Shown: one piece after another, positions 2,219-6,070 of the stretch
Position numbering within the stretch: the first letter of the stretch is position 1
How the letters are laid out: each line of letters begins with the position of its first letter
Source of the DNA: a virus
Strand: one strand, 5' to 3'
IMG/VR virus record: IMGVR_UViG_3300028498_000006
Location: 1-29,360 of that record
Length of the DNA stretch: 29,360 nt
Notes under the pieces: model-generated
The model's database searches: none
What the model was told of the DNA's origin: nothing
What the model saw: only the letters and a program-made list of their open reading frames with translations
Made by a program: the position numbers and the translations under genes

Positions 2219-2550
2219 GTAACTACACAGAGATTTCAATAACCGATGGTGTGACCGAGAAGCGCAGACTGTTTGATTTTGGCGATGCTGAAAACCTAAG
2301 TGTCAATGAGATTGTCCATCTGCTGAACTTTGAGAGCGATAAACCAGTTTGGCATTACTTCATCATGATGAAACAAATCGAGGCGCACATGAAAAACCTA
2401 AGCTCTAACAAGAATGGTTTGTCAGGCGAGGTGTTTGTCAATGGCGAAACGGTCAAAGTAGAGCCTTTTGACGATCAAGAAGTCATTGGCATGGTGAGTG
2501 CGCTCAAGATTAGAGCTGTTCGCCAGTATCTAGCAGGAGAGACAGCATGA
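2215..2550 (+). CDS. Hypothetical protein, translationally coupled early gene
   Basis: An 111-residue acidic protein with a GTG start overlapping the stop of the P-like gene (GTGA), and AGGGTGAG just upstream. It contains a central helix HYFIMMKQIEAHMKNLSS and a short beta segment SGEVFVNGETVKVEPFDD. I do not recognise a family. Tight coupling to the replication genes suggests early expression. Confidence 0.65.
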   Translation: MSNYTEISITDGVTEKRRLFDFGDAENLSVNEIVHLLNFESDKPVWHYFIMMKQIEAHMKNLSSNKNGLSGEVFVNGETVKVEPFDDQEVIGMVSALKIRAVRQYLAGETA

Positions 2551-3246: not shown

Positions 3247-3617
3247 TGACCGAACTATCAGAACAGCAAATCCAAAACAAGATTATCCGCGATGCTAAGA
3301 AAATACCGTACAAGGGCAGAACATTAGCAGATTACATCGTACACGTACCAAACGGAGGTAAACGGTCAAAGCGAGTGGCAGCAGGTTTGAAACATAGCGG
3401 AGTCAAGAGTGGCTACCCTGACCTAGTGATAGACATAGCCCGTAATGGCTACCACGGCTTGCGTATTGAGCTTAAAGATGAAAGTGGTGGCATTACCTCG
3501 GACGACCAAAAGGAACGCTTACAGATGCTCTCAGACGAAGGATATCTAGCAGTGATACGAAGTGGCTATCAGGCAGCGTTTGATGAGTTACTGGATTACA
3601 TGGGTGTCAAACGCTAA
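3246..3617 (+). CDS. VRR-NUC domain endonuclease (PD-(D/E)XK fold)
   Basis: A 123-residue single-domain nuclease. Visible elements of the VRR-NUC family: a Glu/Gln helix (SEQQIQNKII, 5-14), NGGKR (36-40), GVKSGYPDLVID with the PD motif at 58-59, IELK with the E-x-K pair at 75 and 77, and a Q-containing helix followed by GYLAVIRSG. VRR-NUC proteins are structure-specific DNA nucleases. Phage forms are usually stand-alone and sit in recombination clusters, as here with HNH and NinB genes. Catalytic residues look intact. Start ATG is coupled to the preceding stop. Confidence 0.85.
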   Translation: MTELSEQQIQNKIIRDAKKIPYKGRTLADYIVHVPNGGKRSKRVAAGLKHSGVKSGYPDLVIDIARNGYHGLRIELKDESGGITSDDQKERLQMLSDEGYLAVIRSGYQAAFDELLDYMGVKR

Positions 3618-3720
3618 TTACGCACACAAACGCATCAAATCGGCTAAATGCGAGGTTTTAAAGTTGGTTTGATGCAGGTGGGGCTTGATAGGGTTTAAAT
3701 CGAATAGAGAGGGTTTAGTG

Positions 3721-4137
3721 ATGAAGTTAAACAAAGTGCAAAGAGCAGAGTTAAAACTTAAATTTGGTGGTCAGTGTAGCTATTGCGGTATCGAGCTAAC
3801 CAACCGATGGCAGGCCGACCATTTGGAGCCAGTTGAGCGCGAAGTGATTTGGTACAAGTGCGAAAAATCTCGAACGCTAAAAAGCAAAAGCGGTGATATG
3901 CGTAAGCCTGAGCATGACCATATCGACAATATGATGCCGTCATGCGTTAAGTGCAATAACGATAAGTCTAGCGAGACTCTTGAAAATTGGCGCAGGATTA
4001 TCAAGCAACGCATTAAGACGCTGAACACCGATCCGAAATATGCAAGCTATCAAAAGGCTAAGCGGTACGGATTGGTTGTTGAGACGGATATTGATGTTGT
4101 TTTCCACTTTGAGAAATACGAGGCAACCAATGACTAA
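3721..4137 (+). CDS. HNH endonuclease
   Basis: A 138-residue protein with a zinc-type HNH core: CSYC (19-22), ADH (32-34, the His-metal finger start), a second Cys pair CVKC (75-78) followed by NNDKSSET (the Asn-containing helix), and HDH (65-67). HNH proteins nick or cut DNA. Here the gene sits among recombination genes rather than next to the terminase, so a role in recombination or as a free-standing nuclease is more likely than in packaging. ATG 3721 is preferred over an upstream TTG because GAGAGGG precedes it. Confidence 0.8.
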   Translation: MKLNKVQRAELKLKFGGQCSYCGIELTNRWQADHLEPVEREVIWYKCEKSRTLKSKSGDMRKPEHDHIDNMMPSCVKCNNDKSSETLENWRRIIKQRIKTLNTDPKYASYQKAKRYGLVVETDIDVVFHFEKYEATND

Positions 4138-4324
4138 TCTCAAACTAAAAAGACCAATCGCTGTGGGCGACCAATCGACGCATAAGAAAGACAACACGGA
4201 TTGCGAAGTCACATCGATTTGGATTAATACGGCAGGTCAGGCGGTTATTGAGTCGGTCGATGAAAATAATGAGCTTAGCACGGACAGTGTGAGCAGTTTT
4301 ATTAACAATTATCGTAAGGGGTAG
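4130..4324 (+). CDS. Hypothetical small beta-rich protein
   Basis: A 64-residue product beginning TNLKLKRPIAVGDQ, overlapping the HNH gene end by 8 bases. The sequence reads as a small SH3-like barrel (VGDQ..., CEVTSIWINTAGQAVIESVD) with a short C-terminal helix. A longer in-frame start would overlap the HNH gene by nearly 100 bases and is not favoured. The following gene begins with a similar beta-rich domain. Confidence 0.6.
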   Translation: MTNLKLKRPIAVGDQSTHKKDNTDCEVTSIWINTAGQAVIESVDENNELSTDSVSSFINNYRKG

Positions 4325-4327
4325 GTT

Positions 4328-4828
4328 ATGGATATTACGGTTGGTAGTGTTTGGGTTGTTAAGGGTAGCGATAATTTTACAGCAACGGTTACGCAAGTTG
4401 CAGACAAGGGGCGGGCTATTACCTACGTACTAAGGGATGAAGAAACTGCTGGTGAGACGGTTAGACAGACCTCAGATGTGGTATTTAGAAACACATACTT
4501 GCCGTACAGCTTCGTCAGTGTAGAGCCGGAAATCGAAGACGACACCCCCAAAGCCTTGCAAATACTAAACGAAGCCGTACAAATAATGGCAGAACGTGGC
4601 AAGTCTTATGATAAGTCAGGCGGTCAGGCTGAGCGCTCAATGCCAAAGATTGTCGCAATGTTTAACGCGCTGACAGGGCATGAGTTGACACCAGAGCAAG
4701 GTTGGAAGTTTATGTGTTGCTTGAAGTTGGCAAGGTCTGAGCAAGGCGAGTATCGAGAAGATAATTACCTTGATGGGGCGGCTTACATGGCATTGGCAGG
4801 CGAAGAAGCGGAAGCCAGCAGTGAGTAA
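4328..4828 (+). CDS. DUF6378 domain protein
   Basis: A 166-residue, two-part protein. Residues 1-66 form a beta-rich domain (GSVWVVKGSDNFTATVTQVA). Residues 77-160 match my memory of DUF6378: ILNEAVQIMAERGKSYD, then a helix with KIVAMFNALTG, then CLKLARSEQGEYREDNYLDG. The latter pattern recurs in tailed-phage early regions and resembles the helical nucleotide-associated (MazG-like) style, but its activity is not established to my knowledge. GGGGTAGG precedes the ATG. Confidence 0.75.
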   Translation: MDITVGSVWVVKGSDNFTATVTQVADKGRAITYVLRDEETAGETVRQTSDVVFRNTYLPYSFVSVEPEIEDDTPKALQILNEAVQIMAERGKSYDKSGGQAERSMPKIVAMFNALTGHELTPEQGWKFMCCLKLARSEQGEYREDNYLDGAAYMALAGEEAEASSE

Positions 4829-5117
4829 GCGCGATAACAAGCGGCTTGAACAGGTCCGGTCCTTACCATGTTGTGTTTGTGGTATGGGACCGCGCTCACA
4901 GGCGGCTCATTCAAACTTTAGTGAGCACGGAAAAGGTCGGTCCATCAAAGCCGATGACAAATATACGATACCGTTATGTGATGCGGACCATAAAAGATTT
5001 GACCAGATGCTCATGGGTATGGACCGCAATCAATCGCTCGAATGGTTCAATAAAAAATTAGCTTTCATTGACGAGGTTCTGAATGACCAAGCAAAAGGCG
5101 AAGCCCCTATATTTTAG
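4821..5117 (+). CDS. HNH-like / DUF968-like putative nuclease
   Basis: A 98-residue product. The order RSLPCCVC (13-20), AAH (28-30), HGKG (36-39), KADDKYTIPLC (43-53) and DHKRFDQ (56-62) follows the phage DUF968-type HNH layout: paired Cys, then His, then PLC...H. GTG 4821 overlaps the DUF6378 stop by 8 bases and leaves a clean N-terminus; a longer ATG at 4770 would overlap by about 60 bases. It is followed by ninB, as DUF968/Ref-like genes often are in lambdoid nin regions. Whether it cuts DNA is unproven. Confidence 0.7.
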   Translation: MSKRDNKRLEQVRSLPCCVCGMGPRSQAAHSNFSEHGKGRSIKADDKYTIPLCDADHKRFDQMLMGMDRNQSLEWFNKKLAFIDEVLNDQAKGEAPIF

Positions 5118-5571
5118 ATTGGTTAGTGATGAAGTAAGGGATAACTGCATCAAAACTATGTATTTAGCCCACCAAGACAGCGACGAGGTGCTCGAGGTGG
5201 TTATACAGCCGGCCAAACGCAAAAGATCGCTAGCACAAAACCGCATTTACTGGCTGTGGGTTGGTCAATGGTCAGAGCATTGGGGTTGGACAGAGGAATA
5301 CACCCATCATTTTTTTAAGTACAAGTTTCTAGCTATGATTTTTTACAGAGAGGACGCGAAGTATGCCGAGGGATGCGACGCGGTAAAGCTAATCAAAGCC
5401 ATTGATGAGGGTATGTACAAATCAATAGCTGCAAACGTCATCAGACAGACAAGTACGACAAAAGCCAGTACAGCGCAAATGAAAGAATATTTAGACAAGA
5501 TTGAGCGTTACTGCTACGCAAAAGACGTGATTTTAAAGATACCGGATGATCTTAAATGGGCGAGGGACTGA
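5083..5571 (+). CDS. ninB: Recombination protein NinB
   Basis: A 162-residue protein with the NinB hallmark RSLAQNRIYWLWVGQWSEHW (48-67), preceded by a beta strand (LEVVIQPAKRK) and followed by an aromatic helix (YTHHFFKYKFLAMIF) and QTSTTKAS. NinB (Orf in lambda) is a recombination mediator that binds SSB-coated single-stranded DNA and helps Red-type recombination. AGG lies upstream of ATG 5083. The C-terminus (MKEYLDKIERYCYAKDVILK, then IPDDLKWARD) is echoed by the next small gene. Confidence 0.85.
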   Translation: MTKQKAKPLYFRLVSDEVRDNCIKTMYLAHQDSDEVLEVVIQPAKRKRSLAQNRIYWLWVGQWSEHWGWTEEYTHHFFKYKFLAMIFYREDAKYAEGCDAVKLIKAIDEGMYKSIAANVIRQTSTTKASTAQMKEYLDKIERYCYAKDVILKIPDDLKWARD

Positions 5572-5687
5572 TGACCATCAAACAACACGACAAGTACCTG
5601 AACATGATGCACGACCACTTTACGAGCTTAGGCATGATTTTAACGATACCGAATGACATTGACTGGGTGCAAGGGAGAGACTACTGA
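5571..5687 (+). CDS. NinB C-terminal-like microprotein
   Basis: A 38-residue ORF coupled on both sides (TGATG shared with ninB's stop and with the Q-like start). Its sequence KQHDKYLNMMHDH...LGMILTIPNDIDW parallels the NinB tail MKEYLDKIERYCY...DVILKIPDDLKW. At DNA level, 5635-5656 matches 5528-5549 at 20 of 22 bases. It therefore looks like a duplicated NinB C-terminal element retained as its own gene. Function unknown. Confidence 0.65.
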   Translation: MTIKQHDKYLNMMHDHFTSLGMILTIPNDIDWVQGRDY

Positions 5688-6070
5688 TGAGCGAACTAAA
5701 CGTACAGCAATTATTGATTAACTTTGGCGCTTGGGTTCGTGATGATAAAAACGACTTGGGTTACGGCAATCCATTCAATGCGATATTAGCAGCGGCACCG
5801 CACTTGGATGATAATGACGAGGACTGTGAGCAGCCAGTACAGTTTAAAAACGCAGGGCACATGACAGACTTAGATGCAGCTGTCATCGATACGGTGCTCA
5901 AACGGCTTGCTGATCGTCATTATCACTTGTACGTCCTAATCATGGCTCACTATGTCAAACAGTGGTCAGAGCGCAAGATGGCACGCAAAATGCGCATGTC
6001 ACGCGGTCAGGTAGGCAAAGATATATGCAAGGCTGAGGGAGTGATAGATGGCTTGTTGATGCGATTATAA
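5687..6070 (+). CDS. Antitermination protein Q-like
   Basis: A 127-residue protein resembling the smaller Q-type phage antiterminators: an N-terminal LLINFGAWVRDD...LGYGNPF (9-30) and a C-terminal helix-turn-helix, QWSERKMARKMRMSRGQVGK (92-111), followed by a helix to VIDGLLMRL. Q proteins bind DNA near the late promoter, load onto paused RNA polymerase and let it read through the early terminator of the late operon. Its location at the end of the nin-like region, upstream of a promoter-terminator pair (7386-7493), strongly supports this. Confidence 0.8.
   Translation: MSELNVQQLLINFGAWVRDDKNDLGYGNPFNAILAAAPHLDDNDEDCEQPVQFKNAGHMTDLDAAVIDTVLKRLADRHYHLYVLIMAHYVKQWSERKMARKMRMSRGQVGKDICKAEGVIDGLLMRL

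Follow-up and report, generated by a model that had tools for sequence, protein, structure and literature searches.

Phage genomes acquire mosaic borders by both homology-driven and illegitimate exchange, and the recombination mediator Orf itself aids Red-mediated mosaic formation (PMC3945230). At the mosaic junctions of lambdoid phages and mycobacteriophages, the lineage changes at gene borders, there is little or no homology at the joints, and the gene order is conserved (PMC3945230, PMC3029335). In mycobacteriophage Island3, the last 18 residues of gene 68 copy those of gene 67, which was explained as a recombination product at a module junction (PMC3029335).

The window analysed here, a virus record of 29,360 bases, shares the three general features of these junctions, but its left joint lies 38 codons inside the displaced gene and a readable piece of that gene was left. 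As in Island3, a small ORF has a C-terminus that resembles that of the upstream gene in both protein and DNA (18 residues and about 60 bp in Island3), and the ORF is absent in ninB relatives, as gene 68 is absent in the near-identical sister phage Brujita (PMC3029335). In contrast, the shared 3' end in Island3 belongs to an 85-residue ORF without other homologues, whereas the whole ORF of the window corresponds to the tail of a known second allele lineage, for which the donor genes were identified. Island3 gene 68 is thus a partial precedent for the ORF of the window.

The ninB-Q region and a second ninB lineage

Judging from the ORF translations, the early region of the window is of the temperate type, and the packaging and structural genes come after it. 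An HNH gene, ninB, a 38-codon ORF and a Q-like antiterminator gene follow each other with short overlaps (Table 1). The nearest relatives of the window ninB are found in Psychrobacter phages and prophages, and its product shares 96% identity with NinB from a prophage of Psychrobacter glacincola. The predicted fold of this NinB had no match in the PDB, which leaves sequence profiles as the basis of its assignment; at the sequence level, lambda Orf (1PC6) matched it weakly (E 0.32). The window Q is 75% identical to that of pOW20-A (L005). The HNH protein is 96% identical to that of L003 and 67% identical to that of L002, whereas ninB is closest to L002, which indicates a further mosaic step near 5040-5083.

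Table 1 Positions of the genes, joints and short elements of the ninB-Q region in the window
Feature	Position	Strand	Basis
HNH gene	4785-5117	+	
A-type ninB (NinB/Orf recombination mediator), 162 aa, intact	5083-5571	+	PF05772, 27.6 bits (cut-off 23.8); phrog_72, E 1.1e-31
Repeat copy 1, in A-type ninB	5523-5560	+	30/38 identical to copy 2
SD-like GAGGG within the 3' end of ninB, at a spacing of 4 nt from the ORF ATG	5562-5566	+	Duplex energy -7.9 kcal/mol
Left junction: A-type ninB end (GAGGGA/TTGA, break before TTGA) joined to B-type CTGATGAC; the common TGA is the ninB stop and overlaps the new start	5567-5571	+	Junction strings; end of the similarity to L002/L003 at 5571
B-type-derived DNA block (mosaic segment), 123 bp	5568-5690	+	blastn identity of 86.2% (L109) and 84.6% (L110), limited to exactly this span
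38-codon ORF, very probably the 3' remnant of a B-type ninB, reading from a former internal Met	5571-5687	+	End of the 179-codon (G016) and 166-codon (G070) frames
Repeat copy 2, in the 38-codon ORF	5630-5667	+	30/38 identical to copy 1
SD-like GCAAGGGAGA, 8 nt before the Q start	5669-5678	+	Duplex energy -8.4 kcal/mol
Right junction at the Q start codon, common ATGA	5687-5690	+	L109 identity to 5690; pOW20-A identity from 5687
Q-like antiterminator gene	5687-6070	+	PF06530, E 7.2e-18; phrog_79, E 4.3e-26

The preliminary description had noted that the small ORF resembles the end of ninB in protein and DNA and that it has its own start and stop, each overlapping a neighbour by one base. Both observations were confirmed. 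The two repeat copies lie at an offset of 107, with a core of 20 matches out of 22 bases at 5528, and this core is the sole 22-mer pair in the window to reach at least 20 matches at a distance of up to 200 nt; no comparable pair arose in 60 dinucleotide shuffles. The ATG of the ORF overlaps the TGA of ninB (5569-5571) and its TGA overlaps the ATG of Q (5687).

The product of the ORF (MTIKQHDKYLNMMHDHFTSLGMILTIPNDIDWVQGRDY, 38 aa) shows only 30% amino acid identity to the adjacent NinB (E 0.1). Among 50,697 phage records, the best tblastn match was the C-terminus of the NinB of Rhizobium phage RHph_TM3_3_3 (47%, E 0.05), and the top matches among the fetched ninB loci were also NinB C-termini, with E values down to 2e-6 (Acinetobacter prophages, 47%). 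As this homology is independent of the neighbouring gene, the DNA likeness between the ORF and the adjacent ninB reflects common NinB ancestry and not a recent copy. In profile scans, the ORF alone matched positions 119-153 of the 161 of phrog_72 weakly (E 0.2) and had no Pfam match; from these comparisons, its homology to the NinB/Orf family appears clear only through its relatives.

The decisive matches came from a search of the ORF against 105 genomes of the genus Psychrobacter. The ORF corresponds to 37 of the 38 residues (97%) at the end of a 179-codon open frame (L109, in G016) and is 86% identical to the end of a 166-codon open frame (L110, in G070). Both frames encode full-length NinBs that belong to a second lineage, with matches to phrog_7283 (E 1.6e-21 and 5.2e-22) and weak ones to phrog_72. 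At 25-26% identity to the window NinB, they do not count as its alleles in the strict sense. We refer to the lineage of the window ninB (phrog_72) as A type and to that of L109 and L110 (phrog_7283-like) as B type. Compared with the full mediators of both types, the 38-residue product aligns to the last long helix and the protein end, but begins only after the conserved core (QNR...W motif, dimer ring): the first ~121 residues are missing from it, among them the invariant Q52, N53, R54 and W57. No relative of the B-type NinBs was found in a scan of viral contigs. The Pfam NinB profile PF05772 reported no B-type NinBs in the Psychrobacter genomes, whereas phrog_7283 does. Direct protein searches were therefore used, and counts of ninB in Moraxellaceae that rely on profiles are probably underestimates.

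The free ORF is absent next to the ninB of relatives with 96% (L002/L013), 81% (L003), 70% (L005), 69% (L028), 65% (L006) and 65% (L014) identical ninB, an absence that the preliminary description itself had named as refuting its reading. The ninB of these relatives is followed either directly by Q or by another small gene. Between the ninB and Q of the closest ninB relative (L002/L013), there is a different ORF of 77 aa (3490-3723, + strand) with CxxC pairs (zinc-finger-like), which indicates that the gap between ninB and Q is a variable slot. When viral contigs were scanned with degenerate DNA for the tail or the junction, neither a NinB tail nor another record of this junction came up. A conserved free NinB tail did not appear in the viral contigs, phages and plasmids searched, nor in 349 genomes of the family.

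Besides that of the window, orphan ninB tails were observed in two Moraxellaceae genomes. In G332 (L138), an A-type NinB tail of ~18 codons (YLQGVALPVPEDLKWVR, ending at a stop) is located at ~2375-2428 (+ strand), without a start codon and just before the next gene. It comes after a B-type ninB (1159-1608) and a 252-aa ORF, and this arrangement is the reciprocal of that in the window. In G153 (L148), a NinB tail lies in a 66-aa ORF (1474-1674, - strand) whose first half is unrelated; it is 66% identical to Acinetobacter NinB C-termini, and no other part of ninB was found upstream of it.

Borders of the B-type block

The window exhibits sharp breakpoints with different relatives on either side. 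On the A-type side, blastn similarity to L003 (85.4% over 4820-5571) and to L002 (88.9% over 5040-5571) ends at the same base, and on the Q side, similarity to pOW20-A begins at 5687, the ATG of Q. Between them, identity to the B-type genes is confined to 5568-5690 and drops to background on either side. In stepwise comparisons, L109 matches the window at 5/11 positions over 5561-5571, 23/29 over 5572-5600, 39/40 over 5601-5640 and 14/50 over 5691-5740. For L002, 10/11 positions match over 5561-5571, with background beyond, and for pOW20-A 47/50 match over 5691-5740.

The strings at the left joint are GAGGGATTGA in the A-type genes, AAGGCTGATGACG in L109 and GAGGGACTGATGACC in the window; their comparison places the join within five bases (Table 1), with TGA common to both parents. 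The junction sequence in the window is GGGCGAGGGACTGATGACCATCAA, and the TGATG of the stop/start overlap comes from the B-type codons CTG ATG (Leu-Met) at the join. The sequence at the right joint is TACTGATGATT in L109 and ATGAATGAA in pOW20-A, with the ATGA at the Q start common to both.

Origin of the 38-codon ORF

Based on these results, we consider it highly probable that the 38-codon ORF is a recombination scar at a mosaic junction, made of the last 38 codons of a displaced B-type ninB, and not a copy of the adjacent ninB. The simplest order of events is the replacement of a B-type ninB by a module comprising HNH and A-type ninB, together with an exchange of Q. The ancestor phage would have carried a B-type ninB directly upstream of Q. 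A crossover 38 codons before the end of this gene would have brought in the HNH gene and a full-length A-type ninB, leaving the last B-type codons behind, and the A-type stop would have come to overlap a Met codon of the relic through TGATG, which would make the relic look like a gene. Q may have been exchanged at its start codon before or after this replacement. Three further genes of the window recur in the G070 prophage (L110), those at 4142-4324 (57%), 6173 (44%) and 6551 (87%), and the slot between these genes is likewise filled by HNH, ninB (here of B type) and Q. As these shared genes lie on both sides, including beyond Q, a B-type ninB fits this slot. Against this account, only one record of the junction was found, and the Q allele of the window differs from those of both B-type donors, which calls for at least one more exchange at the start of Q.

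The preliminary description regarded the ORF as a tandem duplication of the 3' end of the adjacent ninB that had since diverged. The 20/22 DNA match and the common ILxIPxDxxW pattern would agree with such an origin, which is nevertheless refuted by the far higher protein identity to the B-type NinBs of other prophages (97% and 86%) than to the neighbour (30%), and by the alignment of the whole 123-bp block to B-type ninB at 85-86% DNA identity; we consider it extremely improbable. It is also rather unlikely that two full ninB genes once stood in tandem, the second having lost its first part by deletion. This would yield the same final junction as allele replacement by one crossover, and G332 demonstrates that two ninB-like pieces can occur in one phage genome, but it requires an extra step and two intact adjacent ninB genes were present in no fetched genome.

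The repeat itself was considered as the main cause, acting as a recombination substrate, and was rejected, as the left joint is outside both copies. Gene conversion between the two copies was also considered: 4 of the 8 window-specific changes in the relic correspond to the aligned base of the A-type copy, which is too few to tell from chance.

Translation, possible function and significance

Given the good SD sequence at its start, translation of the ORF is likely, and it is probably enabled by the GAGGG within the 3' end of ninB. In relatives, this GAGGG also precedes the downstream gene. On the window branch, compared with the two B-type tails, 7 of the 8 changes are synonymous and 1 is nonsynonymous. 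From this comparison, the 7:1 excess appears to reject neutral drift over the whole window branch, but it does not demonstrate that the free tail is under selection, because most of the branch may precede the truncation, inside an intact B-type ninB. Of the earlier proposal that the ORF is under selection or recently formed, a recent formation fits the data, whereas selection on the free tail is not shown by the substitutions, which are mostly synonymous but may predate the truncation.

The relic could also be translated by coupling from ninB and co-opted as a free NinB C-terminal tail that binds NinB, DNA or SSB and tunes recombination. Its own start, stop and good SD sequence are consistent with this function, the low dN, with a single nonsynonymous change on the window branch, could also reflect selection on the free peptide, and lambda Orf uses its C-terminal helix in DNA binding, although this helix is flexible and its contribution modest (PMC4118853). 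In the AlphaFold model of the window NinB (mean pLDDT 80), however, the region equivalent to the ORF consists of the final long helix (130-146) plus a C-terminal stretch of low confidence, which makes it unlikely that the tail folds alone. In addition, the substitutions can predate the truncation, the ORF is absent in the ninB relatives, a conserved free tail was not found in the genomes scanned, and one of the other orphan tails, that of G332, is without a start codon. A lone helix of this type might in principle bind a partner, but a role as regulator or competitor of NinB, as previously suggested, appears very unlikely. That the tail in G332 was kept without a start codon suggests that reasons at the DNA level or chance alone, and not a peptide, underlie its retention.

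Considered as a scar, the relic would be nearly neutral as a peptide. It may be tolerated, and is probably useful only as DNA, by providing the Shine-Dalgarno sequence of Q and a stop/start overlap that would couple Q to upstream translation. The corresponding stretch in L109 serves the Q of L109 itself (-8.1), and in A-type relatives the 3' end of ninB serves the next gene directly; the values for Q in L110 and L003, for which the start was misplaced by one base, were left out of this comparison. The relic was probably kept because its removal would have to preserve the start region of Q.

Gene swapping of this kind is usual among phages. This locus is a clean example of how module exchange can create apparent small genes, as both parental ninB lineages are known and the joints are placed within a few bases. 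It also calls for caution, since a small ORF beside a homologous gene in a phage operon can be a piece of a displaced allele and not a duplicated regulator. Finally, it suggests that such pieces may persist because they contain the region from which translation of the following gene starts.
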